Below, one piece after another: positions 1 through 28,229 of a stretch of 39,583 nucleotides of DNA. Origin of the DNA: Syncephalis plumigaleata (Eukaryota > Zoopagomycota > Zoopagomycetes > Zoopagales > Piptocephalidaceae); assembly GCA_025201365.1 (NCBI GenBank), contig JAIXMF010000103.1:1-39583 (forward strand), read 5' to 3'. Within the stretch, counting starts at the first letter, position 1, and each line of letters begins with the position of its first letter. A program made the position numbers and the translations under genes. The notes under the pieces were generated by a model, which saw only the letters and a program-made list of their open reading frames with translations, made no database searches and was not told the origin of the DNA.

Positions 1-986
1 CAAAACATGTACACGGCTACTACCGTGTTTACATTCAATGTTTAGTATATGACTAAGCGGTGATTATTCTCCTATTGTCCTAGCTAAATATTATTGGCAC
101 ATGAGCTACCATGAAGATATCATTGGCCCGATTCTGTTTCTGTTATAGTTAGTTTTATTCAAACAAACACACATACACCATCATCATCATCATCATCGCC
201 ATCATCGCCATCATCATCATCAATAGCAGTAATACCTAGTTCATCTTGTTCGGATCTCGATACATAGCTCTATTCGGTTAGTACTGCTTTTTAGTCATTG
301 GCTACTCCCATTTCTGGATCATCACCATCACCACCACCATCATCATCATCATTAGTATCGGTATATAGGTATATATATATATTCATGACGATATACATTT
401 GCCATTTATCGACCGTGAATCTATCGATCTTGCACGCATCTTCGCCCCTTTACGGGCACTTGTTAGCTATTTAAGCGTGCTTTATTCCATTGTAGTGTAC
501 TGTCTTCACTCTAGCATCATCGCCATCATCGCCATTATCGCCATTCCTATCATGTAGCACACCAGCGTTATATCATCATTCATGTCATTATCTTTTGCAT
601 AGCCAGTTAAAAAAAATGCCATTTTCCAGCTCATTTCCCTTCTTCGTATACAGCTTTCATATTGTTTAACTTTATACACTGGTCTCAAAGCACCAATTCA
701 CTCTTCATCTCTCTCTTCCTTCCTTTCTATCTCTCTCCATTATTATTATTTACTAATGTTGCTTTCATTTCATACTAGCAACATCATCATCACTATCATC
801 GTACTATTTCACTGATGCGCTTCAGTTCATCAGAAGCACACCATGCCAGGTCACTTGTTGTTGTTTTTTATAACAAGAAAAACAACTAATATTGATTATA
901 TAAATATATAAATATTATATATATATATATGTGCTTGTTTGTTCATAATAGAAATGTAATGCAATGGATTGTAATAAGTGTTCATT
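1..986. other. Intergenic, microsatellite-rich DNA
   Basis: I see no supportable gene here. The stretch carries CAT/ATC-type trinucleotide runs (about 176-224, 306-352 and 513-546), a TA run near 901-930 and CT-rich patches (about 705-740). The part next to 986 is presumably the 3' untranslated region of the JMJD6-like gene on the minus strand. The short open frames here are low-complexity translations of the repeats and look non-coding. Confidence 0.6.
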
Positions 987-3070
987 TTATGGTGGAGTTG
1001 GTTTTACACGACACCGATAACATCGACACCCGATACGTTGTTGTACACCATTGGGTAATGTTATCATATGAGGATAGATCGACGAACTATTCTGTTGCTG
1101 TTGCTGTTGCTGCTGTTGATAATTACTGTTATCCACGATTGCTGTAATAGAATTAGTGGCGGCTATTGAAGATGAAGATGATACTATGTTGTTATATCGC
1201 ATTCGTTTCGATGGTGAAGACGATGGCGATGAAGATCTAGAGTCTACACTACTGCCACTACCCCATAGACCTCCTGCTGTAGCACTCGCAGATCCACTAC
1301 TATGTCGACTGTCATTATCGCTTTGTTGTTGATCACTGTAGCAACTACTACTATTGCTGCTACTGTCATTGTCGCTACTGTCATCGCTACTTGGCGGTAG
1401 ACGTGGAATGGTTTGCAATCGTGCAATACGTAAACGAAGTCCTGCATACCAAATGGATGTACCATCCGTGCCGTGCATGGCCATTCTATTCAATTCACGT
1501 ACAAATCGTTGCGCCATACGTGGTCGGCTGTGACGTGCACGTAAATACACGTATTCAACGTTGGTGGAGGAACAAAAGTTCTGCGTAATAGCAATGGTCA
1601 AATCTATTTCCACATTCCCATTTCACCGAGGAATAATAATAATAATAATAATGATCATCATCATTCAAATGATTAATCTACACTATAGAAATGCAAACTA
1701 TGACGAATATATTGATGCACTCACCAAGATTCATTACTACGTGGGCCCAACCACCAGGTACGAATACTGTTTCTTTCGGATGTTGCAACATCTCCACCAT
1801 ACCGTAATACTCTGCGGCACTCTTACCGCCATATTCTTCCGATGGTTTAATTAATCGTGGATAGACATGTGTAAACCAGGCGACTCCTTCATGATCGTAC
1901 GGTTTCATAGGAGGATCGTATACACTCTCGGGTGTACCAGGCGGGAACATTGCCCATCTACGTGATATATATATTTAATAACAAAAACTATGATTACAAT
2001 GATTATCTTACCGTTTATGTCCTACTAATAGTGTATTCCATGCACTGGTACCTTATATTCATCAAATGTTAACTATTAAGTGATAACAGCTTAGTCTTTA
2101 TAGTAGGAAATTACCTAATGGATCAATATGAATACTAATAAACAATACGTTTAGTCAATATTGATGTTGTTGTTATTCTCAAGGTACTTACCCAGTACCA
2201 CTACGTGCACCACCCATAACGAACCAGCGATATGGTGGACGACGACTACCTGTCAGCTTGAATAAATCCTCGGAGAAATAGGAAGGTGACGTATAATCAC
2301 CGAGTAACGAACGCTTTGTAGGACGCGTGATTGATGTAGATGTAGATGTAGATTCTATTTCCGTTGTCTTGTGATACTTCGTCGATGGCTCACGGAATGA
2401 ACTCTCGAATATGTAGAGGGGCGAGTCATCTATTTGACCGGCTTCAGAGTTTAAGTAACGCATAAAATATTTGAACTTTACACGCACGGGATCACCCTCA
2501 TCATCCTCGCCTATTTTGAATGGACTTTCCGCGTAATCCTCGAGTAAACGCTAAACCATTCATATTGTGATAATATAAGATATATAAATAATATGGTGAG
2601 CTCATCATTCAATACTACTAGTTGATGACGATACCACTTGCTATAGTGCTTACCTCTGGAGTCCAATTGGTCTCGGCCGACCAGTGACGAGTACAACCAA
2701 GGATAACCACGGGCTTTCTCGGTTGCTCGTATAGTGAGACAAAATCTAATTTAGATACAAGAGCGCAGTCAATACGCGGTACGCGGTCACTATCCTTTGC
2801 CGGCCAATAATTGTTGTAGCGATAGCCCCAACGATGCCAGTCATTAATATCAAGCTCTAATAACGGTAGGATGATAGACAGATATTATTCGTATTATATA
2901 TACACTGCTACTGGTCAATACATGCTGTTATGCTTACCAGGTCGGCATTTGACTTTAGCTCGTAGTATACGACGCTCATACCGATGAGGATCGTAGCGCT
3001 TTCGTTTCCCACTATCACTAGTCATTTTTACGTGTGATCCTTCTAATGAAGCAGTAGAAGTGTCAGCCAT
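987..3070 (-). CDS. JMJD6: JMJD6-like JmjC 2-oxoglutarate/Fe(II) oxygenase
   Basis: Seven exons join exactly in frame to 534 residues: 3070-2938, 2856-2654, 2550-2192, 2134-2115, 2051-2012, 1957-1725, 1603-987. The JMJD6 family hydroxylates lysines (and was proposed to demethylate arginines) of nuclear RNA-processing proteins. Visible family signatures are YEQPRKPVVILG, DDSPLYIFESSF, RRPPYRWFVMGGARSGTG, then IHIDPLGTSAWN, GHKRW, TVFVPGGWAHVVMNL and LTIAITQNF. The iron ligands would be H234, D236 and H324 and the 2OG-binding lysine K251; the spacings match human H187, D189, H273 and K204. The N-terminus has a basic KRKRYDPHRYERR stretch, likely nuclear targeting. The C-terminal ~150 residues are Ser-rich with a Gln run and look disordered. 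The HxD pair lies on a 20-nt micro-exon (2134-2115). It is divergent from the small gene at 3334, with 263 bp between the two starts. Family assignment is strong; substrate is unknown. Confidence 0.93.
2115..2134 (-). other. JMJD6: 20-nt micro-exon with the JMJD6 HxD iron-binding motif
   Basis: The upstream exon ends ...ACT GG at 2192 with donor gtaagt. The downstream exon begins GT ACC AGT at 2051 after an ag. Between them only TATTCATATTGATCCATTAG, flanked by ttattag and gtaatttc, restores the family sequence GIHIDPLGT in phase (2 to 1). Its flanking introns are 57 and 63 nt. Skipping it shifts the frame and removes both iron ligands, so its inclusion decides whether the product is active. 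Confidence 0.9.
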
Positions 3071-3333
3071 AGCTAAGATAGTTGTCTAGTTTGTTAAAGA
3101 ATGAATTGGAATATAAAGGATAAAATGCATATGTATGTGTATTCCTTTTTATCTTAAGGAAGGAAAAAAGCGGGATCTTGTCTATAGGATGATGTGATGG
3201 AGTTTTTTTTTGTTTTCATTTCATTATGCTCATTAATCCGACAGTTAACTCTTATTAGCTTTTGTTTACCATTGTGATTCCTTTCCTCACATTGCCAACT
3301 TGACCTCGTTATATTCCATTTTAACACGTTACA

Positions 3334-3654
3334 ATGACTGCTACAATACCACAACCACAACCGCAACATTTGCAATCTGAAGAACAGGTAAATAGAGATA
3401 TATGGCATTTATTAATAGGTTCAAGTATATACTGATGGAAATGACAGACGATTATAGCCTTCAGTGATGCGCACATAGCGGAGATTGAGGCAGCAGACTG
3501 GGTCGGTATTGACATATCCGCGGCTCAACTGGATGAATTGCGTACCGCTTTAAATGAAGTACGTGATAATGCACAAGCACTACAAGCTAGCGAGGCTATC
3601 ACTACCCATCTTGCCGGTATGGAAAGCGCGCTATGTCAAGCGGATAATGAATAG
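3334..3654 (+). CDS. Small acidic protein, 86 aa, unrecognised
   Basis: Two exons (3334-3387 and 3448-3654) give 86 residues. The first exon is a Gln/Pro-rich leader (MTATIPQPQPQHLQSEEQ). The second is a helix-prone acidic segment, with EIEAADWVGIDI then ALNEVRDNAQALQ and a terminal QADNE. The intron begins gtaaat and ends gacag. I see no signal peptide, membrane segment or known motif. The helical Leu/Ala pattern would fit a small coiled-coil subunit of a complex, but that is only an inference. It is divergent from the JMJD6-like gene, so the two may share the 3071-3333 promoter. The exon pair is credible because frame and splice sites agree; function is unknown. Confidence 0.6.
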
Positions 3655-4361
3655 GTAGCATTGTTAGTATGAAGCATGTTCCTGGAATTCTTCCTTCATG
3701 TCTGCTCCTAGATGGACATCCAATGTTGCTGAAATAGATATGGCTCATGTGGTTAGCTGTATGTTGTTATTACATGCTAGCACTTGTTCATATCATGAAT
3801 TAATGATTTGATTGTTAATATCGGAGAAGCTAAGCAATAAAGCTGAACTGCTGTAACATCAAACGCTCATTAATGATAGTGTGAATAAAATCGTCCTTCA
3901 ACATAATGCACTTATTCAAAGAATAGCCAAGTTTATTAGGAGATTATTACAGCTATTCTCGACTATTACTAGAATAAACAGTTTGCTTTTGTGTTTGATC
4001 TAATGACTTCATACTAGTTATACACACGTCGTATCGTTCTTGTTTCCCAGATGATTATTATTATTGTGCTATCAATGTAAACGCACTTCAATATTACTTA
4101 CGTTTATTGAATATATTCATGATGCTTTAGCTATGAATGTAAGCAAGCAACTACTCGATAATAATCACTAAGCAGGAGACATGAGTACAGATAACATCAT
4201 CTATGGCATTGCTCAAACATTCCTGAAAGACAGACACATTTTTATTTTATCAACAATGATACAGATATATCCTTACTAATTAGCATCAACCGAATAACAC
4301 GTGTATCCATTAGTAGTTACTGCTTCAAACAAACGATGCTAATTACCAGATAGGAGACAAC
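3655..4361. other. Intergenic, no gene seen
   Basis: AT-rich DNA with many short stops in all frames. A short open frame from an ATG at about 4190 ends quickly and has no splice partner that I could find. It presumably holds the 3' end of the gene at 3334 and the promoter of the gene at 4362. Confidence 0.5.
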
Positions 4362-4758
4362 ATGCTAAATGATTATAAAGCCATTAGATCATATTCACCA
4401 TACGAGAACATCCAGCCTAATGTCGCATATCCCAATATACTTTTGATTGATTATTCCGACGATACATTCGCGCCATACTGGGGTGAGTATGATCAATCAG
4501 CCTACTGATTAATTCGTACTAACTAATGCCACTTACGATAGATGGTGCTCGAAATGCAAAGAGCAGCACTGATCCACGTACGATTGTTATGGAAGTGCGT
4601 GATGCTAGCGATCAAAGTAAGCAATTGCAACGTAGCATATGTATGCTGTATACTAACAAGTCATTCTAGATGATTCATACCTTGATCAAAATGCCGCTAC
4701 ATTAGCATACGCTATTGGCAAGCTAGGAAAGGCGGTCAAACCGTTGAATTCTGCTTAA
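4362..4758 (+). CDS. Small spliced protein, 94 aa, unrecognised
   Basis: Three exons (4362-4482, 4542-4616, 4670-4758) close in frame to 94 residues. Both introns are textbook for this genome: gtgagt ... tactaac ... gatag, and gtaagc ... tactaac ... tctag. That makes the gene model convincing even though no similarity is recognised. The protein begins MLNDYKAIRSYSPYENI, has a hydrophobic/acidic centre (YPNILLIDYSDDTFAPYW) and ends in a helix-prone LAYAIGKLGKAVKPLNSA. It has no cysteines, signal peptide or transmembrane segment. An in-frame stop lies upstream, so the ATG is the likely start. It sits just upstream of the first copy of the ~190 bp direct repeat, inside the island that holds the single-codon-exon gene. 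I do not know its function. Confidence 0.65.
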
Positions 4759-6342
4759 TACATGAATTATTTGTTGATCAATAGGAGTAAAGCTTACTTT
4801 TCTATTCTGTTCTTACATTGTTGAACATGCATACATTAGAATGATAATGTCAAAAGTATCTCATTTGATTTACATGTAGCGAACGTGTATGTGTGTGAGG
4901 GAATGATACTTGAACGATGGTCATATGAATAGGATGAATGTCGTATCGCATTATAGATACCATCGAGTATGTTCATGTCCATATGATTGTGGGATCATTC
5001 GATGACATGTCGTGATGCATTGCAATCAGTATCGATCACGTCAAATTGACAATGGAACGAGCAATGATAAATTACGTACGAATGAACATGTCATGTAGAT
5101 GTCATGATAATGAATGACATTTGTATGGATGTGACAATCAAGTCAGAATAATAATTACATGCACGCTCTATTATTGGAAGCTATCGTGTATTGTTCGTAA
5201 TTCGCACGTATTTCTATGCTAAAAGAGCATAATATCGGCTATTCAACTTGATTTGCCATCACTGTCCAACTAGGCAGACATGCTTCCTATTCTTACCTAT
5301 CCACTTCTTAATCGACTTCATCGCACAGTCGACTATCCTCACCACACATGCATGTAATACGCATAACAATCCGAGCATAGCATAATGTCTAGTGTTAGTG
5401 AAATGCGGGACTAAGGAGTTAAAACAAGTGATGATGGAAATGAGTGGCTTTATTGGCCGAAAAGAATGATGTCGAACAAATAAGTGGATGTAAACGAGCA
5501 ACGTCAGTTCCTAGACTAATGATAGTTGCATTCGATAATTCAAAGCAAGTAAACACTCACTCCTTCGGCAAATACTCATATTCCCCAGCTTGCTTACATT
5601 GGACTAACCAATCCGATCACTTTGAAAGCAACGGACATCATGAAACACTCGTGCATTGTTGTATGCTTGCATTTGTGCCATTGTATTGCAGCTGACGGCT
5701 ACTTCACTCCTTGTTAGATGGTTGGTTATTCTAATGACTTAGCACAGACTTCTATTCGAAAATGAAATGGCTGTAATACGCTCTGTTGAACAGGTATGTT
5801 TTACTCGAACTGAGGTTAGCTGTATAACCCTTGACCAGCAAATGGTCATACAGTTCCCTCATATGTGGTTGGCAAAACGTATGAACAAAGCCCATGGTGA
5901 TGGACATTCCGGTTTTCTTCTTACAAAAACCGGTTTATTTGAATACGTCCTGCTATTTTTGGACAATGGCGACTTCTATCACACCACCACCAAAGTAATC
6001 CCAATACGAATGTTTCTCCGTGGAACTAGCAGGGAAAGGAGAAGTGGAAGTGACGAGTATGGAGGAAATAGTGGATAGCAGCATAGGATTGGTTACAAGA
6101 TCCTGTGAAAAAGAATCCCAGGTGAAGGAAATGAGGAGAGAAGGCCTTCTTGGTGCTAAAACAATGTAGTAAAATGCGCGATGCGGCGTTACAACATATC
6201 GGCATATGGAGTAGATGCTTAGGGGAATTACTCGCGTGTATCATGAATGGCACCACGATAGCCATCATCATGCTTTCCACCTAAATATTTAGCATCATCT
6301 CGGCTACAAATAAGACGCTGTTGATAGACACTCGACTTGCCA
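4759..6342. other. Intergenic region of the accessory island
   Basis: Apart from the direct repeat at 4941-5127 I find no convincing gene. Open frames at 5444-5695 (83 codons) and 5767-6078 (103 codons), both plus strand, are the longest. They show no family motif, no nearby TACTAAC intron and no low-complexity bias either way, so they may be chance. Confidence 0.4.
4941..5127 (+). repeat. Dispersed direct repeat, copy 1
   Basis: About 190 bp that recurs in the same orientation at 10371-10567. Matching blocks include TACCATCGAGTATG, ATTCGATGACATGTCGTG, GCATTGCAATCAGTATCGAT and, at the end, ATGTCAT-GATAATGA-ATGACAT, a perfect 7-bp inverted repeat with an 8-nt loop, followed by TTGTATG. Similarity stops abruptly on both sides in both copies. 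No open frame is shared between the copies. It could be a small non-autonomous mobile element or a duplicated 3' flank: copy 1 follows the gene ending at 4758 and copy 2 follows the single-codon-exon gene. Confidence 0.8.
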
Positions 6343-6459: not shown

Positions 6460-9400
6460 ATGAAGTTCTCTGCTGTTACCGCTATTGCCGTCGCCGTTGT
6501 CGCTGTCGCCAGTCTGGTCGCCGTTGAAGCTAGTCCCGCCTTGGAACGTCGTGGTATGTCTGGCCGTGACCCTATCAATTGATGTACTAATCGTAGCCTA
6601 TTGTTTCATTGTCTACCGATGATTAGCGAAAAATCGTAAGTTCATGTATATTAAATGGTTGTTTTAACATACTAATCACATCATAATATTTACTCCTTCT
6701 ATTAATTTGTTAATAACAGCTCGTAAGCTAGTGTATTGGCCATAACAAGTACTATGCTAATCATATCATAATGGTTATTTCATATATTGATTTATTAGCT
6801 TCAGGCAGTAAGCTATTCTATTAACTACAACAAGTACTATACTAATAGTAGTATGAATTAAAATCATGTGTGATGTCCTTTACAAGAATCCGTAAGTTAT
6901 CATTCTGATCGTAATGAACTGATTACTAATGACAATCTGGCACACAACCCATATACTTGTCCATCACAGTGCGTAGGTTATCATTTTGATTGCAATCTAT
7001 GAATGTACTAATCACGCTATGACGCATGATCCACTTATACTCCTGTATAATAGCATGTAAGTAATCATCCTGAACGTAATGAATGAGATACTGACTATGA
7101 TATGGCACACGATTAACATATGACTGTGTACGATAGACGGTGAGTAATCATTCTGACTGTAATAAATGAGGTACTAATCACGCTATGGCACATGCTCCAC
7201 AAACCTTTGTATACAATAGGACGTAAGTTATCATTCTAGCTGTAGTGAATAAATGTACTAATTGTAACGTGGCACATGATTCGCATGCGTTCCCGTATGA
7301 TAGCAAGTAAGTTATCATTCTGATGGCAATAAATAGCGTACTAATCCTAATATCGCACGCGATCCACACCTGTTCCCGTATAACAGGCTGTAAGTTACCA
7401 TTTTGGCTGTAACCTATGAGGTACTAATTATACTATGGCACGCGATTTCCTTACGTTCCCGTATAACAGCCTGTAAGTTATCATTTTGACCGTAATGAAT
7501 GAGGTACTAACTACATTGTGGCATGTGATTCGCATGTATTTCTATCTGATAGCATGTAAGTTACCATTTTGACCACAATGAATGGATGTACTAATCACGC
7601 TATGGCATACGATTTGCATACGTTCTTGTATGATAGTATGTAAGTAATCATTCTCACTACAGTGTATGGATGTACTAATCACGCTATGACGCATAATCCG
7701 CACATATTCTTGTATGATAGCAAGTAAGTCATCATTCTGATCGTAATAAATGAGGTACTAATTATGGTATGGCACACGATTAACACATGGCTGCGTATGC
7801 TAGTGGGCAAGTAAACATTTCGGTTACAACCTATAGTATGCTAACCTTAGTATGACACATGATCCATTTATATTCCTAAATGGTAGTATGTAAGTAATCA
7901 TTCTGACTGTAACGTATGCGATACTAATGATAATGTGACACACGATCCACGTATGTTTCTGTATGACAGTCTGTAAGTCATTATTATGACCGTAATGAAC
8001 GAGATACTAATTGCATATGACACATGATCCACGGATGTTTCTGTATGATAGTGGGTAAGTTATCGTTTTGATCATAATATATGGATGAGTACTAACTACA
8101 GTATGTCTTACAATCCTCGTATGCTCCTATATAATAGAGAGTAAGTCATTATTCCGATCGTAATGAACGAGATACTAATTGCAATACGATCCATAATCAA
8201 TACGTGTTTTCGTATGATAGGATGTGAGTTATAATTCTGATCGTAATCTATGAATGTACTAATCATGTTATGACACACGATCCACATACGTTCTTGTATG
8301 ATAGGAAGTAAGTCATTATTTTTATTATAATGTAAGCCATACTAATCACGCTATGGCACACAATCCATACGTATGTCCCGGTATAACAGTGTGTAAGTTA
8401 TCATTCCATTTATAATCTATGGTGTATTAATTATGATTGCCACTCTATCCATACGTATATCTACCTATCACAGTGCGTAGGTTGCCATTATGATCGTAAT
8501 GAATGGATGTACTAACTATGATATCGCACATGATCCACATATGTTCCCGTATGATAGATCGTAAGTCATCATTCTGATCATAATATCAGGTGTACTAATC
8601 ACATATACCATATCATTCACGTCTGCTTGTGTATGATAGAGCGTAAGTAACCATTTTGACTGCAACCAATGAATGAGTACTAACTACAATGACACCAATC
8701 CACGTATGTTCGTGTATGATAGAACGTAAGTAATCACTCTAACTGCAATGAATGAGGTACTAATCATAGCGTGGCACAATTATCACATGTCTGTGTATGA
8801 TAGGGCGTAAGTAATCTTTCTGGCTGCAACCTATGAATGTACTAACCACAGTTTGACATATGATCCACGTATGTTTCTGTACGATAGAAAGTAAGTTACC
8901 ACTCTGATTGCAATGAATGAGGTACTAACTACGATATGACACACGATCCACACATGTTATCGTATGATAGTGGGTAAATTACTATTCTGATTGTAATGAA
9001 TGAATGAGTACTAATCATGCTACAACACATGATCCACGTATGTTATCGTATGGTAGTGGGTAAGTTACCATTCTGATTATAATGAATGAACGAGGTACTA
9101 ATTATGCTACGGCACATGATTCACGTATGTTTTTGTATACCAGCCTGTAAGTTATCATTCTAACTGTAACCTATGAATGGGTACTAATCACTCTATGACG
9201 CATGATTCACGTATATTCCTGTATGATAGGACGTAAGTCATTATTCTGACTACAATGAATGAATGTACTAACTACGATAACATTAATCCACATATGCTCG
9301 CGTATGATAGAACGTAAGTAATCATTCTGATGGCAATGAATGAGGTGCTAACTACAATGTGACACATGATCCACGTATGTTCCCGTATGATAGAAAGTAA

Positions 9401-10059
9401 GTAATCATTCTGGTAGCAACCTATGAGGTACTAATGATAAAATGCCACATGATCCATATATGTTCGTGTATGAAAGCTCGTAAGTTACCGCATGACTGTA
9501 ATGAGTGATGCACTGACTATAATATGGCACATGGCCAACATACATTTGTGTATAATAGGAAGTAAGTTATTATTCTGGTTATAATGAATGAGATACTAAT
9601 GATAACGTGGCACATGATTTCCATACATTTGTGGATAACAGTGCGTAAGTTACTATTCCCAATGATAACATATGGGTGTATTGATACTAATACGGCGTAT
9701 GATCCATGTATGCTCTCGTACGATAGAAAGTAAGTGAATATCGCCGACCCTAATGTATGAATGAGTACTAACTACAGTATGGCACATGATCCACCTATGT
9801 TTCTGTATTATAGCAAGTAAGTTACCATTCTGATTGTAATGAATGAGCAAGGTACTAATTGTACTATGGCACGCGATCCACGTATGCTCCTGTATATCAG
9901 CCTGTAAGTCATTATTCTGACCGTAACTAATGGGGTACTAATACCAATATGTCATATAATTCACATATGCCTGTGTATGCTAGTGGGTAAGTTAATATTC
10001 TGACCGTAATGAATGAGGCACTAATCACGATACAATTTACATCATCTAAACGATAGTAA
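6460..10059 (+). CDS. Secreted Cys/Trp-rich miniprotein built from 37 single-codon exons
   Basis: Exon 1 (6460-6553) encodes a signal peptide, MKFSAVTAIAVAVVAVAS then LVAVEA, followed by SPALERR with a Kex2-like RR. Small exons follow: 6627-6635 (9 nt), 6720-6722, 6805-6807 and 6887-6891 (5 nt, which moves the phase from 1 to 0). Then come 37 exons of exactly 3 nt, each lying between a consensus ...AG and GTAAGT. In phase 0 they contain no stop and encode Cys at 6970, 8390, 8474 and 9642, Trp at 7804, 8052, 8971, 9057 and 9984, and a core DECCISNGKWWPDN from 8221 onward. The next acceptor (10056) is followed at once by TAA (10057-10059), giving 75 residues from about 3.6 kb with 42 introns. 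An alternative last exon lies at 10118-10297. Four cysteines after a signal peptide suit a disulphide-bonded secreted peptide, perhaps an effector-type or defensive protein, which is inference. I recognise no family. One intron has a GC donor (7807) and one acceptor is AAG (9476). Confidence 0.75.
6892..10056 (+). repeat. Tandem array of 38 similar introns, period about 83 bp
   Basis: Each unit reads GTAAGTTATCATTCTG, a short GTAATGAATGAGG-like block, TACTAAT/C, then GGCACATGATCCACGTATG, and ends TGTATGATAG. Exactly three variable bases separate one AG from the next GTAAG. Those 3-nt exons start at 6970, 7054, 7137, 7220, 7304, 7387, 7470, 7553, 7637, 7721, 7804, 7887, 7970, 8052, 8138, 8221, 8305, 8390, 8474, 8558, 8640, 8723, 8804, 8888, 8971, 9057, 9144, 9230, 9311, 9394, 9477, 9559, 9642, 9727, 9814, 9901 and 9984. 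Spacing is 81-87 bp. Donor, branch point and acceptor are the best conserved parts, whereas the three exon bases differ from unit to unit. That is the opposite of what a plain minisatellite would show. The introns upstream (6554-6886) are diverged relatives with the same layout. Confidence 0.92.
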
Positions 10060-10117
10060 TAAGCGGTTAGTAATAATCCACAATCATCATACCCATACTA
10101 ATCCATTATGATTACAG

Positions 10118-10297
10118 AGCAAGACAAGGACATCATCAAGTAGATATTATAGGTATTCAAGTCAAGAATGTATTGGTGCAAGACCCTTTAGTGTCCATGC
10201 TACTCACGTCATTATTCCTTGGTACAACAACAACAAGTATATCTACAAGTCCCTTACGTCTATTCATCCATGGTCCTATTACATAAATATTAAATAA
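10118..10297 (+). other. Alternative terminal exon of the miniprotein gene
   Basis: A strong 3' splice site (catactaatcc ... attacag) ends at 10117. In phase 0, the phase delivered by the codon array, the following 59 codons are open up to TAA at 10295-10297. If used instead of the acceptor at 10056 it would extend the protein to 134 residues with a Ser/Tyr/Asn-rich tail and a fifth cysteine. An odd cysteine count and the array-like acceptor ending cgatag at 10056 make me prefer the short form slightly, but I cannot decide between them. Confidence 0.45.
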
Positions 10298-10839: not shown

Positions 10840-12030
10840 ATGGGTAAACGAAAGACTGACGATCGTATGGAAGGTATGGAGAATGACAGTGAAGAGAACG
10901 TCGCTCAGTCACCGTCAGAGCAAGATGATTCCATGGATGTAAGTAGAGGACGCTTTATCACTACGCTATAACGATAAACTTTAACATATCAATAGGAGGA
11001 TATGGCCGATTTGAATGTGGACGAGAACGGTATGGTCAATGTGGATTTCGAGTTCTTCGATCCACGTCCCAGTGATTTCCACGTCGTTAAACGGTTTTTA
11101 ACGCAACTCTTTGGACCGGACCAGGAGTTACTCGCGTTGTCGGCACTCGCCGATATGACTGTCGAGCAGCGTCTACTCGGCACCTGCATCAAAGTCGATG
11201 GTAGCGAGTCAGATCCATACGCCCTATTGAGTGTATTGAACCTTACCGAGCATAAGGAGCAGTCGCATGTACGTGGTCTCATCGATTACTTGCTTGATCG
11301 GTGTCGTAAGAATGAGCAAGCCACACAAGTGTTGCAGGGATCGCTCGAACGACGTACGGGCACTGTCACCGATGTGGCATTCCTCGTTAATGAACGTCTA
11401 ATTAATATGCCGGCTCAAGTGGTACCACCCATGTTTAAAATGTTAGCCGAAGAAATTGAATGGGCCATCGAGGATGTAAGTGACATGAACATATTACTTA
11501 TATGTATATAGTGTCGATAGAGTGTATAAACTAACGAATATACATGTCATTGTAGAAAGAACCCTATCAATTTGCATGGTATATCCTACTTTCCAAAACT
11601 TATCGCGAAGTAGCCCCAGTTGCCGATGATGATCTACCAGATGCACCATTGCCACAAGGAAAGAAAAAGAAGAATAAGGCAAGTGTTTGTATACGTAGAT
11701 AATAACAGCAATAGCAATACTAATATTCATTAATAAACTAGTCTACTGAACCTGCTATCTTCCATTATCATCCTGAAGATGAGATTATTGAACAGGTAGG
11801 ATATACATTGTATCAATCATGTAGACACACACTCTTATTTATTAACATGATTGATTATATAGTTTGCCGATATTAAGCATGACTTCAACTTCCGTAAACC
11901 ACCACCAGTAGCAGATGCTATGCGAGCATTCCAAGAAACAGGCATTGCACCAGCACGTCGTCTTTATTTCATTCGTCAAGAGAAAATGTCACAACTTATA
12001 TCAGCATTAGAAATGGCAATTCAAGCCTAG
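10840..12030 (+). CDS. BCP1: BCP1/BCCIP-family protein
   Basis: Five exons (10840-10938, 10996-11475, 11556-11678, 11742-11795, 11863-12030) give 307 residues. The family (yeast Bcp1, human BCCIP) is nuclear; in yeast Bcp1 escorts the ribosomal protein Rpl23 and promotes nuclear export of Mss4. Visible features are a basic then acidic N-terminus (MGKRKTDDRMEGMENDSEEN), the conserved VDFEFFDPRPSDFHVVKRFL, LLDRCRKNEQ, FLVNERLINMPAQVVPPM, then YQFAWYILLSK, a lysine run (GKKKKNK) and FFHPED-like FHYHPEDEII, ending RLYFIRQEKMSQLI. Length matches the family. Intron 3 has a GC donor (AAG|gcaagt). It is convergent with SEC15, with 191 bp between the two stops. Confidence 0.92.
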
Positions 12031-15984: not shown

Positions 15985-18647
15985 CTATAGAGAGTTTGGA
16001 CATTCCCACTTCCATCGGGATAGTAGACGAGCCCGTTCACAATAGGATGTGGTTACAGGTAAGCCATAGATCCAAGGGGAATAAATCCAGAATGCGGCTA
16101 CTATGCCTACACTTAGTATGACCAGTAATGCATGTGATATCGCACTTGATGCTGATCGATCCAAGTAACGGAAGGCAATATCGAATAGAACACAGCTTAA
16201 AAGTACTGAAAAGTAGAAGGCAGGCAAATACTCGGTGATGAATAATGGTCGTTCCATAGTAAAGTAAGGAATGTAGTGAGCAAGCCATCCAGTCACTAAG
16301 AATCCAGCCATATTCATGATAGGGAATCGATAACCTAATCATTCATCGTTACTTTGCTATTACTCTTAGTAGTAGTAGTACAATAGAAACTTACCATGCC
16401 AGTTATCAGTATAACCTCGTTGATCACGTAGAACAAGTACTAATTGTAATAGGGCCCATACAGCAATGGATAAGGCAGAGCATAACCATACAGGGATATT
16501 ACCAATAACAAGTATGCTATAGTTGGGGGATTCAACAAGTGGAACACCCTTCTTAAATAGAGGCCACCAAGCAGTGGGACGAGAGGCAGCAGGATGAAGT
16601 TTATCCACAAGATTACGCTTTACCGTTTGAATGGCTTTATACGTTTCCTTGAGTTTCGACCAGAAACTCGGTGAAACAATCGTGGACATTGGCGCATCTA
16701 TCGGCATGGTGGGATGTTGATGCGCGGTAATACGCCATAGTAAATTATCGGGATTACCATCTCGAATACAGGTCACTTCATTCTGTCCGAATGCCCATGA
16801 AGGTAATACGGCATTATGCGATGATAGATAGCAGCCTAGATTGGCATGACGCAAACGGAAATACGTGTAGAGTGCCATGATTTGATGCTTTGACTGAGGA
16901 ATATCACGATTATAATCGATGACATCAATAATCCAGTCATCATTGGCATCACCGGGGAAATCAGGAAATCCATAAGCACTATTAGATACAGAAAGGAGAT
17001 ACATCAATGAATAAGTGAATCAATTAGTTATCATACGCAACATACCTCACTTCTTTGTGATGTTCATTCTCTGTTAATGGCGCCTTATGATCATGACTAT
17101 GTAAACGACAATTGGTCATGGTGTGCATGAGACGAATACGCTCGCCGTTATAGATGGGTGCCGGTGGTTCCTTATCATAGGCTACATCCGGTCTGTCGAA
17201 TCGTTCTACACGCCATGTATTGAATATATCTTCATGTTGGTAGAGTGTCACTTGTTGCTGACGACTACCACCCGGATAGTAGTGCTTGTGAGAGTGTAGG
17301 AAGCTGTGCGATTTAACATGTTCTATGGTTATTTCCGAACCAAACGAGATATTCTGTGGCATGGCCGGGGTAACAATTCCATTTGACAGGGTGGAACGAT
17401 ACTCTAGCGACATCAATTGAGCTGAATGTGTGTGCTGATTTAACACGCTAAAATGAATGGCGAAACAGGCTAGATAAACGACAGTAGGAATGGCAACTAG
17501 TGTAATAGCACGCGCTACAGCATGATGAGCCAATGCACACTAATGATTAATTGATTGATTAGTACATGAACAATAAGGCAGAGCAGTATAGTCATAAGCG
17601 GGATATTTACCAGACTAACACGACGATCGCCTAATAATCGATAGAATTCCACGAGGGTAGCCATACCAATAGTACCTAGAAGGAATATGCCCGATTGCTT
17701 TGTACTAATGGTAAGGGCTAAACTCAAACCGGTAGCACCAAGCCACGACCACCAAGTGGTAGTGAATGCCTGTTCATCGTAACGTCTAAACATCGTATAG
17801 CTTAATACAGTGGCACCCGTAAAGAATAGCAATATAGGATCAATGGAGATATAACGGGAATTTGTAATAAAAGCATGCTCTATAATATCATCATTATTAG
17901 TAAATTAATTAATTAGTAATAGCTATGTCTGCTTACCAAATAATACCATAATTGCTGCGAGTAAGGATGCCGTTGATGATTGATAGGCTGCTTTCATGGT
18001 TATATACGCCATGGTTGAGAGTAGTGCACCTAATATCGCGGAGAAGATACGTAACTCGATAAATGGCATGTTGAATCCAATAAAAGAACTTGAAACAAAT
18101 GCGTATCATAGATTAGCAACACTTAATATACTTTCTTTTATAGATCGATTACTTACGCGGCAATATTCGTAAAATCATATTCGCCATCGTAGCCAAACAG
18201 ACGAGCTATTCCTGCCAACAGTAACTTGCCAAATGGTGGTTCCACATCAATAAAAAAGGTGCCCTTAATATATTGCGACAGGTAATCACCAGTGGGTATT
18301 TCATCAAATACTGCTTGATGTGGATGCGATATATAGAATGTGCGCACTATCAATGCAATAAGCGTGACACCGATAACCGAACGAATATCCGTGCTAGTAA
18401 GTAGTGGAGCAGAAGTAGATGGCAGATCCCGACGAGGATGACTGGTTATCGTCTTTGCCACCGAGGTAGACACCGTGCTATCCTGACTGATATGACGCGT
18501 CTCAATAGTGTTATCACTAGTAGTAGTATCGCCACTACCGCTACTACTACGCGTGGTGATAGTAGTAGTAGTCGTGGTCTCTGTAGTGGTCTCCTCTACA
18601 ATAGCTACGTATTTCGACGACTCGCTCTTTTCAGATGGAGTCGCCAT
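15985..18647 (-). CDS. Protein O-mannosyltransferase (PMT family)
   Basis: Six exons (18647-18157, 18088-17937, 17879-17611, 17539-17046, 16978-16395, 16334-15985) give 779 residues. PMTs are ER membrane enzymes that move mannose from dolichol-phosphate-mannose to Ser/Thr of secreted proteins. After a Ser/Thr-rich cytosolic tail (~95 residues) come the first membrane helix, the luminal acidic pair in VFDEIPTGDY, FFIDVEPPFGKLLLAG and GYDGEYDF, then several helices. The MIR region follows (HSHKHYYPGGSRQQQVTLY, LHSHDHKAPLTENEHHKEVSAYG), and C-terminal helices with HYIPYFTMERPLFITEYLPA. The DE pair thought to be catalytic is kept, but the usual DVHPP reads DVEPP and the usual DExHFG region reads DEIPTG. 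Features mix those of PMT2 and PMT4, so I leave the subfamily open. It is divergent from the AP-3 sigma gene, with 250 bp between the starts. Confidence 0.9.
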
Positions 18648-18897
18648 ATTTTGACCAGAAGAACAGGAACTAGCTGTGTACTATAGTGTAAAGATAAGAA
18701 AGAATGAAATAGAGATAGAGATAGAGAGAGTGAACAACAGGCGAGAGAAAGAGAGTAATAAGAGGAGAGACAAAGGGCGCATACAAGTTGTTGTATTATA
18801 CGAGAATGAGTGTGTCGTCATCAATGTTCGTCATAAATAGAAATAAGTTACTCCTCTCCCTTTATTCTATCCATCCCTTTACTTTCTTGTCTATACA

Positions 18898-24173: not shown

Positions 24174-27100
24174 TTACCATAGACGACCTGCTAGACGAGA
24201 TTCCAATGAAGATTGACGTTTCCATGGATTAGCAGTGTTGATCATTGCATCGGTTGATGTTGATGAAGTGATGGCAGCCATTGTAGTTGAAGTAGTAGCG
24301 GTAGCAGTGCTTCCACAAATAGTAGGTGACATAATTGGTGACACAATAGAATCACTACTATGATTATTACTATTGCTTATGAATAATTCTTGATAATTAT
24401 TACTACTACCAGTAGCAGTAGTAGTAGCAGTAGCAGTAGCATGACGCTCTGCTCCTACAGCCATGGAACGAGGACCACGCGTGCCCCATGAGAACAATGA
24501 GACATCCATGGTATTCTGTGGCATACACGTATCAAGTGGTGGAAATATTTCCAATTGTGACTGATGTGCAGTATTAGCAGCAGTGGTAGTAGTAGTAAGA
24601 ATCATATCAGGATCCATTGACATTTGTGATGAGAATAGTGCTTCAGTCATCCATTGTGATGATGATGCAGATGCAGATGATGCAGGCATTGATGATACTA
24701 ATGAACCTACAACATTATTAGATGCAATAGGTGGTGATTGAGCTGGTTCACCTGTAGCATCTACCACATCTATAACCTTATGATTTGTCGTAGTAGTTGT
24801 CGTAGCAGTCGATGATGATTGATCGAACATCCTAGTTAATGATGCGCTTAGACCATTATGGCTACTCATAACAGGAGATGATGCAGATGATAATAATTCG
24901 CCACTTCCCAAGGCAGGTGGAAGTGGTGATGACGATTGGTAAAGTGTCTCATCCGATAGATTATTAGACCATGCATCACTAATGGGTAACACGTTGGGTG
25001 ACATGGCAGGTGATCCAACCGAGCCTGCATTGGCATCCAACTCGGGACGAGGCGGATTGGCACATCGATCCTTGCCGAAATTAACGCGAACCCGCTCGTA
25101 GCCAGGTTTACCACGAATGGCATCAACTGCTTTCACGGCAGCGGCCACACTTGTAAAGTTAACGAATGCACACTGACGTTCGGGTAGCGTGTTAACAAGT
25201 TCAATCTCGCCGTATTCAGCGAAATCATCACGAAGTCGTTCGACGGTGAACACGCGTGCATCGTCTAGACCGCCTAGGTAAACATTACGACTGGCACCTA
25301 CACTGACTGCACGCATAACCTCGGCGGGCAATGGACGTGGTCTTCCCCAGCCAGGTCGTAAACGCTGATGCTTCACGACTAATCCCGGGTGAAGTGCACG
25401 TCGATAAAAGTCGGCTGCAGAATCGGCAGTAATGAAACTAACAAAGGCAATTCGTTTCTCGGGAATCAATCGAATTCGTTCTAATGCACCGCCACGAATA
25501 ACATTGCATAAATCTTCCACGGTAGTGCTACGCTTAAGATTGCCCAAATAGACGGTACGATGATCGGGTGATGGTGGTACCATGGGTTGATCAAGCATCA
25601 TCATGGCAGTGGGTGATCCAGGATTGGACAGAATGGTGGTAGCACCTGTATTCGCACCAGTTGGCGTGTTACAATTGCTATCGTTGCCATTCATGCCGAC
25701 TAGTATCATTGAATCATTATTTAATGTCGAGGGTGATTGTACTGCCGCTAATGGTGGTGAACAAACAACCGATTGAATGTTGGTCGGTGGTAGTGTTTGC
25801 TGTTGTGCTTGTACAAATAGATTTGTATTGGGACCATTAATGATAGTATTACCAGTGGAATGGTTGACATGATGATTATGGTTGTGATTATTAGGAGCAG
25901 AATTGGCTTGCATCCATGATATCGATGATAAAATTGAATTGGGACCTTGTTGTTGTTGTTGCTGTTGTTGTTGTTGCTGGTCTAATGTTACAGCAGCCAA
26001 TTCTGGTGACATGGTCATGGCTCTACCATTTGTCGTACTAGCGCTAGGATGATTGTAATTGGCATTAGGTAACATGGCCGTGTTAGATGATAGTGTCGCA
26101 GATATTTGAGCTGAAATCGACTGTCCAGCAGCATTGGCATTAGCATTAGGTGACACTCCAAATGCCATTGGATTGTGTACTGGTGGCAGTTGTGCATCAT
26201 TGGAAATAACATTACCAAATGAATCAGTACGATTACGTGCAGCTGCCGCGTAGGCCATGGCAGCTACTGCATTCGGTGGATAAATAATAGTATTCGTATT
26301 AGTATTCGTAGTATTGTTATTATTACTATTGTTATTACTATTACTATTATTATTATTGTTGCTGCTGTTATTGTTAATGAGACCTTGTGCATTCATGGCC
26401 ATCATCGTTTGTTGATGCTGTTGTAGCAGTTGTTGTTGTACACGCTGCTGTTGCTGTGCCTGCTGTTGCTGTTGCTGTTGATGCGCCAATTGTTGATGCG
26501 CTTGTTGCGATACCGCGCCACGTCCCAGATCCATACGATCGAGTTGCGATAGACCGGTGGATGGTCCATCCGGTTGTAGTGCACCATTAACAAGCACACA
26601 TCGATCTCGTCCGTATCCAACTTGTCTACCAAGCCATTGATCGGATGATGATCTGAACCATGCCACGCAACGAATGGCATCGGCAATCGACGTGAAATGC
26701 ACGAACGCAATACGTCGATCGGGGAACCAGCGTAAGGTTTCCACTTCACCGAATTGCTCGCAAGCATCTCGTACACGTGGCTCGGTGTCCTCGGGAACGA
26801 GTGCACTGATGAAGACAGCACGTGTGGCGCCGTCTTCTTCGGCTGCGCGTAAAACGTGGAGCGGCACTGGTGATGGCTTGCCCCAGCTAACCTTGATCTC
26901 TTGCCCGTTGACGATAAGCGAACGACGAGTAAGATGATTGGTAGTGGCACCATTGACGGGACTCGACACGCCACCGTTACTACCACCATTCGAACCGGCA
27001 TAGTCATTATGGAATGCGGACGCAGCAGCAGCACTAAGGAAACTGATAAAGGCACAGCCACGCTCGGGTAACATACGAATGGATTCGATAACGCCATGAG

Positions 27101-28229
27101 CACGAATCTGCTCCAAGATATCACGCGCGTCGGTATTCGCGGGTAGACCGCCCAGGTAAATGGTACGACATGGCTGACGCATTGGTGATTGATTCGGCGT
27201 AAGAGATCCGGATAGTGGCGTAGAAGGTAGGGGAACACGCTGCGAGCCACCATTACTATTTGTTTTACTTGGATCCATGGCCACTGATTGTGGAGGAGGG
27301 AATGGAAGTATCGTCACCGGGAATGCCGGCGATAACGGCGACATTGGTGACATGGGCGTATCGTAAGGCATGGCAGTTGACGTCGAAGCGGGTGACATGA
27401 TTGGCGTGCGTGGTAGACTCGCGTACATGTCTTCAATATTGTTGCCGTGGTGGTTGCTGTTGTGATTGACCTGACCACCTGTCACGTAATTGCCGGAGGG
27501 ATTGAATCCATTCTGATTGATGGATGTCGCCGATTGAGTTGCCATAGCCGTCAATGAAAGTGTGCTATGATTGGGCGACCATACACCGCCAAAGTTAAGA
27601 CCGGCGGGTGATGCGGGCATATGCCTAGTTGGCGATAGACCCGATTGATCCATCGCGTGAATGGAGATGTACGGCGATGATGATCCAGAAAGTGTACCAG
27701 CAGCGGCAGCGGCAGCAGCAGCAGCAGCAGCAGATGAAGGCAGCGACATGCCTGTCGCATGAGATGAACGACGAATAGTAGTCATGTTGGCCTCTTGAAC
27801 AGCGGCATAACGACCACCATCATCGAATATACTCTCTAGTTGACGCGCTTTATTATCATCATTGCCGGACAGCATTGACGCGTTAAAGGCATGTCCATTT
27901 AATCCGACATTGATATTGTTATTATAGCCGTTACTACTAGGAGGGTTGGACAACGATATGCCAGCCACAGGGAGCGATGATGCAGACAATGTATCGCATG
28001 ACTCCATAATTGTGTTACCACCATGACTGTTTGAAGGGGACATTGCCACTGCTTGCAAGGAAGGGTTGGTCCAAGAGGTAGCAGCAGCACTGGTTGACAT
28101 GGGTGGTAGAAACATCGCGGCAGACGAGAATGGATCCGCGTACCTTAGACGCTTACTTGTATCGCCAGGTGGTTCTACACCACGTTTCATGTTAGTTGTT
28201 GAGACAGCAACGGTTGTGGCATTCGCCAC
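24174..28229 (-). CDS. Four-RRM RNA-binding protein, Nrd1/MRN1 type
   Basis: A single exon of 1351 codons, striking beside its intron-rich neighbours. Four RRMs lie in two pairs: about 353-450 (RTIYLGGLPANTDARD, RGCAFISFLSA), about 469-550 (RAVFISALVPEDTEPRV, RIAFVHFTS, GYGRDRC), about 889-965 (RTVYLGNLKRSTTVEDL, KRIAFVSFITA, GWGRP) and about 980-1065 (RNVYLGGLDDARVFTVERL, RQCAFVNFTS, NFGKDRCANPPR). This paired layout matches fission yeast Nrd1 and budding yeast Mrn1, which bind mRNA and control differentiation or stress transcripts. Between and around the RRMs lie long Ser/Asn/Gln-rich low-complexity stretches with poly-Ala (~165-178), poly-Gln and poly-Asn, suited to granule formation. SP motifs are frequent and could be MAP-kinase sites. 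A large (283-codon) frame overlaps it but is a shadow. Confidence 0.92.
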   Translation of the reverse strand: MANATTVAVSTTNMKRGVEPPGDTSKRLRYADPFSSAAMFLPPMSTSAAATSWTNPSLQAVAMSPSNSHGGNTIMESCDTLSASSLPVAGISLSNPPSSNGYNNNINVGLNGHAFNASMLSGNDDNKARQLESIFDDGGRYAAVQEANMTTIRRSSHATGMSLPSSAAAAAAAAAAAGTLSGSSSPYISIHAMDQSGLSPTRHMPASPAGLNFGGVWSPNHSTLSLTAMATQSATSINQNGFNPSGNYVTGGQVNHNSNHHGNNIEDMYASLPRTPIMSPASTSTAMPYDTPMSPMSPLSPAFPVTILPFPPPQSVAMDPSKTNSNGGSQRVPLPSTPLSGSLTPNQSPMRQPCRTIYLGGLPANTDARDILEQIRAHGVIESIRMLPERGCAFISFLSAAAASAFHNDYAGSNGGSNGGVSSPVNGATTNHLTRRSLIVNGQEIKVSWGKPSPVPLHVLRAAEEDGATRAVFISALVPEDTEPRVRDACEQFGEVETLRWFPDRRIAFVHFTSIADAIRCVAWFRSSSDQWLGRQVGYGRDRCVLVNGALQPDGPSTGLSQLDRMDLGRGAVSQQAHQQLAHQQQQQQQAQQQQRVQQQLLQQHQQTMMAMNAQGLINNNSSNNNNNSNSNNNSNNNNTTNTNTNTIIYPPNAVAAMAYAAAARNRTDSFGNVISNDAQLPPVHNPMAFGVSPNANANAAGQSISAQISATLSSNTAMLPNANYNHPSASTTNGRAMTMSPELAAVTLDQQQQQQQQQQQGPNSILSSISWMQANSAPNNHNHNHHVNHSTGNTIINGPNTNLFVQAQQQTLPPTNIQSVVCSPPLAAVQSPSTLNNDSMILVGMNGNDSNCNTPTGANTGATTILSNPGSPTAMMMLDQPMVPPSPDHRTVYLGNLKRSTTVEDLCNVIRGGALERIRLIPEKRIAFVSFITADSAADFYRRALHPGLVVKHQRLRPGWGRPRPLPAEVMRAVSVGASRNVYLGGLDDARVFTVERLRDDFAEYGEIELVNTLPERQCAFVNFTSVAAAVKAVDAIRGKPGYERVRVNFGKDRCANPPRPELDANAGSVGSPAMSPNVLPISDAWSNNLSDETLYQSSSPLPPALGSGELLSSASSPVMSSHNGLSASLTRMFDQSSSTATTTTTTNHKVIDVVDATGEPAQSPPIASNNVVGSLVSSMPASSASASSSQWMTEALFSSQMSMDPDMILTTTTTAANTAHQSQLEIFPPLDTCMPQNTMDVSLFSWGTRGPRSMAVGAERHATATATTTATGSSNNYQELFISNSNNHSSDSIVSPIMSPTICGSTATATTSTTMAAITSSTSTDAMINTANPWKRQSSLESRLAGRLW

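Follow-up and report, generated by a model that had tools for sequence, protein, structure and literature searches.

Runs of predicted single-codon exons in a putative secreted-peptide gene family of Syncephalis plumigaleata

A stretch of DNA of 39,583 nucleotides (nt) from Syncephalis plumigaleata (contig JAIXMF010000103.1, positions 1 to 39,583 of the forward strand, hereafter the window) holds, downstream of an ATG at position 6460, an array of units in which three bases lie between a 3′ splice site and the next 5′ splice site. Very probably the window contains here a functional protein-coding gene, a member of a family of secreted, hypervariable and partly Cys-rich peptides, whose transcript would be spliced codon by codon. 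The architecture of the gene, its family, the phase of the exons and the conservation of the Cys codons can be regarded as established at the sequence level.

The exon array and its gene family

The gene was modelled from donors, branchpoints and the first AG after each branchpoint, with hand-set weights; this splice model is blind to frame and to stops. The model reproduced the coordinates and content of the gene that the original prediction had placed at 6460..10059 (Table 1). The 37 single-codon exons claimed there correspond to 36 triplets with GT donors and a TGG followed by a GC donor, GCAAGT; the donors of the modelled units are GT, mostly GTAAGT. The branch motif TACTAAT/C, said to recur, is present in 35 of the 41 modelled introns; the array's reverse strand has no TACTAAY. 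The TAA proposed to follow the next acceptor is located in the stop exon. Concerning the first exons, given as 94, 9, 3, 3 and 5 nt, the total phase is the same in the model, but its first-AG rule makes the second of the 3-nt exons 9 nt long. Removal of ~42 introns would yield a 228-nt reading frame of 76 codons, and the modelled product without the TGG unit is MKFSAVTAIAVAVVAVASLVAVEASPALERR followed by AKNPPSGKSCHTDQAPHYQYSWRDECCISNGKWWPDNKLECKQPW.

The longest exon chain has 42 donors in the array, versus 4 to 6 in positions 1-6300 of the forward strand and in 10400-39583 of both strands. On the reverse strand of the array the longest chain has 15 donors, and in 200 mononucleotide shuffles the mean is 4.8 and the maximum 13. 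Tandem Repeats Finder (TRF) displays the array as an 83-bp tandem repeat of 36.4 copies with 67% matches. Since the units are homologous, their spacing does not represent 37 independent observations; the regularity alone proves little, and the rest of the genome carries more weight.

Genome-wide, a pattern consisting of the branchpoint, YAG, k bases and GTAAGY has 2233 matches where k is 3 (reversed-pattern control 85), 78 where it is 2 (control 104), 66 where it is 4 (control 127) and 160 where it is 6 (control 93). The matches at spacing 3, together with the GT-donor triplets of the window, support the original suggestion of an intron between nearly every codon. The leader exon of the window, used as query, gave at least 150 matches in the S. 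plumigaleata assembly (150 of 170 candidates were scored); redundancy may account for some of those on small contigs. The intron-1 motif TATCAATTGATGTACTAATC occurs 113 times in the assembly with up to 2 mismatches, compared with 2 for the reversed control. For the 3′ untranslated region (UTR) exon, 40 matches were scored among 211 candidates.

In protein searches with the family, only S. plumigaleata and unnamed proteins were matched. Two family queries matched 18 deposited proteins named S. plumigaleata, versus the 150 leader-exon matches in the assembly, which suggests that such genes escape annotation. A related leader is found in the metagenome/ENA proteins P0052, P0054-P0056 and P0059-P0061, and some of the leader-bearing proteins of this origin seem to read into an intron start that resembles intron 1.

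Thirty-five array loci, the window included, were modelled. Left out were L033, whose model and exon lengths are identical to those of L032; the intronless L038, L042 and L047; and the 3-kb loci L001-L017 and L019-L027, which are shorter cuts of the same genes and intronless members (L027 has no chain, and second leaders are present near the ends of L025 and L026). Of the short exons in the 35 loci, 766 in all, 649 have 3 nt and 28 have 5 nt, and the lengths of 727 are 0 mod 3. The arrays thus display the very short predicted exons, in multiples of three, of a micro-exon gene in the broad sense, in which very short symmetric exons hold the greater part of the mature coding sequence. The introns have a median of 80 nt, their length classes mod 3 are 286/243/237, and the donor is GTAAGT in 593 of the 766.

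Variant arrays were also seen. At C1:1411705-1417526 (minus strand) is an array of 3-nt exons of another type, in which several units lie ~82 bp apart, the intron sequence differs (CTAATTGTAAATCG...) and GTAAGC donors are frequent; it was seen from pattern matches alone, and no leader match is there among the matches listed. Runs of 6-nt (two-codon) exons with the usual unit spacing are found in arrays at C58:10437-12722 and C223:612325-614608 (minus strand). In L045 (C113:155800-163803) a run of 9- and 12-nt exons, i.e., longer codon blocks per intron, precedes the 3-nt run. L036 (C193:1-6327) is a near-copy of L037 in which ~2 kb of extra DNA interrupts the array after the ATG codon unit.

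Phase of the triplets and selection on their codons

Exon 1 being 94 nt long, phase 0 is open to the main run only where an exon with a length of 2 mod 3 comes before it. In 31 of the 35 loci an exon of 5 nt, or in some loci of 2 nt, has this effect; the 2-nt exons play this phase-correcting role in L028, L029, L057 and L060. Among the 649 three-base exons, 561 are in phase 0, 68 in phase 1 and 20 in phase 2. The phase-1 triplets come from L035, L043 and L061, which have no phase-correcting exon (25 of the 68), or lie near the gene start, and the 20 phase-2 triplets follow a 2-nt exon in L031 and L051. The assignment of the triplets to phase 0 in the original prediction is supported by these loci and, as described below, by the conserved Cys codons, by the AP start that intronless paralogues and spliced array genes have in common, and by deposited gene models, stretches of which read the same triplets as codons.

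No stops are present among the 649 triplets, versus 17.8 expected from position composition. Genome-wide, TAA/TAG triplets number 0 and TGA 1, versus 1373 matches to the parent pattern (reversed control 37); the mirror control AAT/GAT, which covers TAA/TAG only, has 64 matches. In concatenated runs, stops amount to 0/604 in phase 0, 3/565 in phase 1, 59/565 in phase 2 and 0 in the reverse complement. The first in-frame stop is in the last modelled exon in 23 of the 35 loci and in the penultimate modelled exon in L059.

Units of different genes were paired as reciprocal best matches by the likeness of both flanking introns, in phase 0 and with near-duplicate genes removed; L046, L036, L064, L029 and L018 were left out of the Cys test. 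At a mean flank identity of at least 0.75 there are 101 Cys/Cys pairs, including 19 TGC/TGT swaps, and 6 pairs of Cys with another residue. The residue is kept in only 48 of 438 non-Cys pairs. Within-gene shuffling of the codons (500 shuffles) gave a mean of 6.7 and a maximum of 23 Cys/Cys pairs. Swaps between synonymous Cys codons with so few replacements are what translation would predict; Cys cassettes could also spread.

The codons diverge rapidly. In three distant gene pairs the introns are 76-80% identical and the exons 24-47%, and the per-site codon identity is 0.49 at flank identity 0.75-0.80 and 0.31 at 0.70-0.75, compared with 0.27 in random pairs. Hypermutation of the triplets was considered, as codons diverge faster than introns; however the introns are constrained by their splice signals, so that no special mutator is claimed. 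Block exchange, considered in view of whole-codon replacements such as ACT/GTC, was also set aside, since among the unit pairs most alike, those with an identity of 0.95 or more in each flank, only 3 of 45 differ.

Triplets of the form NCA/NTA, which would create a YAG acceptor with the G of the donor, are 3 of the 649, compared with 14 of 224 codons in five intronless paralogues, and CAG is absent. This scarcity, with the lack of CAG, is a predicted mark of working splice sites. The codon usage of the triplets correlates with that of the intronless family members at r 0.67 for the phase-0 runs and 0.55 for all 649; the values for phases 1 and 2 are -0.48 and -0.22.

Stretches of three deposited models read the triplets as codons. 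P0036 aligns with the spliced L040 with 40 identities and no mismatches, 5 residues being absent inside the aligned stretch; P0048 aligns with L039 with 26 identities and no mismatches, 2 residues being absent; and P0039 has 24 identities in a row with L063 and no mismatches. The intronless paralogues L038, L042, L047, L023 and L025 have the same leader, which runs straight into APNTQ, GLQLG, APQEH, APQFG or ASTPE. A mature start AP is found in 3 of these 5 paralogues and in 16 of the 35 spliced array genes, with APQ in 10 of the 35. L038 and L047 are unbroken through TAAGCAAACAAGACAAGGACATC, which is nearly what splicing yields in the window. Their stop continues as TAAGCAAACAAGACAAGGACATCATCAAG, from which L042 differs; the window, when spliced after the CAG at 10117, reads TAAGCG joined to AGCAAGACAAGGACATCATCAAG.

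Proposed product and alternative explanations

Splicing itself, its order, the processing of the peptide and its role are what we infer. The 94-nt exon would encode a nearly invariant secretory leader that ends in an RR site, and the mature peptide would be encoded by tandem units of an intron and a codon, with ~80-nt introns, near-consensus GTAAGT donors, TACTAAY branchpoints and YAG acceptors. One early exon of 5 or 2 nt would correct the phase, and a late exon would carry the TAA ahead of the common 3′ UTR exon. The introns may be recognised singly (intron definition), probably from 5′ to 3′, with each donor at the end of the growing exon. In fungal secretion, signal peptidase and a Kex2-type protease release the mature part of a precursor. 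Exon 1 is presumed, from its sequence and general knowledge, to encode a signal peptide with a Kex2 site; the leader would be removed in the endoplasmic reticulum, and a Kex2-type protease would cut the RR site. The mature peptide (C..CC..C in the window) may act extracellularly, with other fungi as its most likely target. The peptides would change through duplication of intron and codon units and through codon substitutions, with the cysteines retained.

As for the secreted Cys/Trp-rich peptide of the original prediction, the leader family and the selective conservation of Cys are in its favour. Four Cys with a CC pair are found in 8 of the 35 loci (the window, L034, L037, L041, L046, L050, L057 and L058), and L051 also displays them, but with the fourth Cys beyond a frame shift. 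Other mature parts are Pro-, Gly-, His- or Lys-rich (L032, L028, L044, L048). When the spliced mature peptide was compared with the PDB, three matches were obtained at E up to 10; the best, 0.0042 over 16 residues, contained no stretch that passed, and these matches were judged to be chance. A Pfam search with 12 members gave 15 weak families, each in one member only (best FlgK_D1, 0.00064), also judged to be chance. The likeliest role would be that of an arsenal of secreted peptides against fungal hosts or competitors; S. plumigaleata, of the order Zoopagales, is taken here to be a mycoparasite.

A further suggestion, offered tentatively and with somewhat less than an even chance of being correct, is that each intron and codon unit, through the homologous introns on both sides of every codon, is a one-residue cassette that can be duplicated, lost or exchanged in frame, within a gene and among paralogues, and possibly skipped in splicing, so that the array would be a generator of peptide diversity at codon resolution behind an invariant leader. 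Within genes, blocks of units seem to have been duplicated along with the codons they carry, namely units 4-9 and 11-16 of L059 (DNGNPC, DNGSPC) and units 13-15 and 24-26 of L050 (LDD, IDD). The divergence of codons almost to random, while introns remain ~70% alike, is in keeping with a cassette. Exchange between genes and the skipping of units are possibly candidate steps.

Several observations weigh against translation of the triplets, or against its extension to all copies. For known spliceosomes, an exon of 3 nt poses a steric difficulty. As TAA, TAG or TGA after AG would form a competing donor, splicing itself disfavours stops, and the absence of stops may in part reflect this avoidance; phase 1 and the reverse complement are also nearly or wholly stop-free. 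For these reasons stop-freeness was dropped as a sole argument, and the concern expressed in the original prediction, that an open frame could be due to chance and that another phase is open, is answered by the family evidence and not by the stops. The Cys signal is weaker at flank identity 0.70-0.75, with 42 Cys/Cys and 45 Cys/other pairs (others identical in 59 of 911), and, as unit pairs and genes are related, the pair counts are not independent. Outside Cys, no purifying selection was detected: synonymous changes are 54 of 195 single-base differences (expected 56.3) at flank identity 0.80-0.90, 35 of 151 (expected 29.1) at 0.75-0.80 and 1 of 14 (expected 4.1) above 0.90. In three of four close gene pairs the exons are no more alike than the introns (exons and introns, respectively: L036/L037, 92.7 and 92.8%; L028/L029, 96.0 and 98.5%; L035/L043, 76.2 and 94.9%). 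Codon usage of the triplets shows no correlation with that of the window's ordinary genes (r 0.03; phase-0 runs 0.07, phase 2 0.11).

Individual loci also count on this side. Eleven of the 35 have no clean end, and some may be decayed copies. L031 and L051 have a 2-nt exon in mid-run; L035, L043 and L061 have no phase-correcting exon, L035 and L043 also lacking an AG before the expected donor; L053 has a stop at codon 34 under the first-AG rule; and the array of L036 is interrupted. In L045 and L046 the model placed the end wrongly, and L063 and L018 are cut. Outside the matching stretches, the deposited models differ from the modelled splices and omit codons. In our reading of it, P0036 lacks six of L040's 47 short exons; its end is also different and runs past a donor. 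Given the differences and the codon omissions, the deposited models may be computed predictions.

The repeat structure detected by TRF, the lack of excess synonymous differences in non-Cys codons, the resemblance of the AG..GT junctions to the ratchet sites of recursive splicing and the lack of any transcript seen for the array would fit a non-coding 83-bp minisatellite within one large intron, or recursive-splicing ratchet points, the triplets being untranslated spacers. This is hardly probable at all. At the Cys codons the amino acid is retained, TGC/TGT swaps included, in contrast to the saturated codons beside them, and the exon lengths are multiples of three in 727 of 766 cases, unlike the intron lengths. 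The leader phase and a single 5- or 2-nt exon lead to phase 0 in 31 of 35 loci, 24 of the 35 have a stop in the last or penultimate modelled exon, and the codons are read in stretches of three deposited models. That the array genes are for the most part pseudogenes or relics, expression being limited to one or a few ancestors and the intronless paralogues being the working genes, appears very improbable. Mid-run 2-nt exons, a missing acceptor in some copies, the existence of the intronless members and the three close gene pairs cited above would be expected of relics; however the window and L046 have exons 96.9% and introns 92.4% identical, the Cys codons are retained, and the 649 triplets contain no stop.

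A further explanation accepts the triplets as real exons but has their inclusion vary, such that frame-preserving subsets of codons would result in many peptide isoforms per gene. The skipping of a 3-nt exon never shifts the frame, sites are weaker in some units (e.g., the GC donor at 7807), and the deposited models omit codons, P0036 the six short exons of L040 and P0048 two within its aligned stretch. These omissions can be modelling errors, as the end of P0036 likewise reads beyond a donor, and the GTAAGT donors in 593 of 766 introns favour constitutive use; variable inclusion is considered unlikely, although a fair minority chance is left to it.

Known systems, significance and neighbouring genes

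In schistosome micro-exon genes (MEGs), a parasite gene family, most exons measure 15 bp and the smallest size stated is 6 bp (3 in the abstract); each gene has 10 to 20 exons, and the introns are 0.1 to 5 kb long (PMC10526429). The MEGs resemble the S. plumigaleata arrays in that they are secreted, have a conserved N-terminal signal and many tiny exons mostly in multiples of three, and form a diversifying family (PMC10526429). The exon and intron sizes given there are not those of the arrays, with their 3-nt exons and 80-nt median introns. The arrays differ further in their runs of single-codon exons, in having the introns in a homologous tandem array and in belonging to a fungus.

Aphid bicycle genes have an average of ~17 exons, with internal exons almost all in phase 2, and one megacycle gene has more than 100 microexons (PMC9168663); thus exon number alone is no record for the S. 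plumigaleata arrays. Likenesses are the effector-like secreted proteins, the many microexons of one phase and the fast-evolving family recognised by gene structure (PMC9168663). The arrays differ in being in phase 0 (561 of 649 three-base exons), with one codon per exon and tandem-repeat introns. The S. plumigaleata arrays work like schistosome MEGs and aphid bicycle genes, yet lack features of both for which they were tested.

Conotoxin precursors have an invariant leader, a hypervariable mature peptide, conserved Cys codons and patterns of the C..CC..C type. The arrays are similar in the division into leader and mature part and in the Cys pattern, but the gene structure is different. The conotoxin-like mode of evolution, in which Cys is kept and the other mature codons are hypervariable, is seen at flank identity of at least 0.75 and is weaker at 0.70-0.75. 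Pfam Conotoxin was matched by 1 of the 12 members (E 0.012), which is not convincing. Introner elements are families of similar introns at many sites of a genome. The similar introns described here, where the arrays alone were compared, are in contrast tandem and carry a codon along.

A single 3-bp microexon, which is alternative and can be spliced, is described for Drosophila homothorax (PMC7392893); there it is one such exon per gene, and here runs of dozens. According to a 2024 paper, which notes tests in fission yeast, there had been no description of functional microexons from filamentous fungi (PMC11121469). No report of such Syncephalis genes or of runs of single-codon exons was found among the literature matches listed, subscription papers and preprints being outside the search.

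The S. plumigaleata arrays are classed here as a type of micro-exon gene, one far beyond the range found described. If the proposed splicing is correct, the dozens of consecutive one-codon exons, in a large family, would be the most extreme split-gene structure known to us. A lower bound on exon size would be set in bulk and not as a lone curiosity, the family being an experiment of nature on the minimum size of an exon, and testable questions on the spliceosome would arise: intron definition without exons, the order of removal, and a donor three bases after an acceptor. Secreted peptides could then evolve one residue at a time, and the cassette, if demonstrated, would represent a diversity generator of a new kind. 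In other fungi, ordinary RNA mappers and gene predictors could overlook genes like these.

Table 1. Positions of the modelled gene features and of other genes in the window.
Feature	Positions	Strand	Description
Exon 1	6460..6553	+	94 nt, MKFSAVTAIAVAVVAVASLVAVEASPALERR plus 1 nt; donor GTATGT next; predicted to encode a hydrophobic leader plus a pro-region with a dibasic RR site at its end
Intron 1	6554..6626	+	GTATGT ... TACTAAT ... TAG; conserved within the gene family
Exon 2	6627..6635	+	9 nt; frame-blind model
Exon 3	6720..6722	+	3 nt, CTC, phase 1
Exon 4	6799..6807	+	9 nt (first-AG rule); alternative of 3 nt, 6805-6807, via an inner AG (CTTCAG/GCA); phase unchanged either way
Exon 5	6887..6891	+	5 nt; shifts the frame to phase 0
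Run of single-codon exons	6970..9986	+	36 exons of exactly 3 nt, GT donors, introns of ~80 nt between
First Cys codon of C..CC..C	6970-6972	+	
Extra triplet TGG	7804-7806	+	GC donor (GCAAGT, 7807-7812); brings the total to 37
Adjacent Cys codons, CC of C..CC..C	8390-8392 and 8474-8476	+	TGT and TGC
Last Cys codon of C..CC..C	9642-9644	+	
Stop exon	10057..10065	+	TAATAAGCG; TAA at 10057-10059; many paralogues carry NNNTAAGC(A/G)
Common 3′ UTR exon	10118..10249	+	AGCAAGACAAGGACATCATC...; start after the CAG at 10117, chosen by comparison with intronless paralogues (the splice model took a later AG, 10124); 10249 is not an established 3′ end
Ordinary gene	10996-11511	+	BCCIP family
Ordinary gene	16366-18680	-	Protein O-mannosyltransferase (PMT, MIR, PMT_4TMC)
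Long open frame	24174-28427	-	RRM domains, long Q/N tracts
Ordinary gene	36097-38536	-	RhoGEF with PH domain

The product of the long open frame with RRM domains was compared with other proteins, and in the part searched it is 33-41% identical to fungal RRM proteins, some of which are named Negative regulator of differentiation 1.

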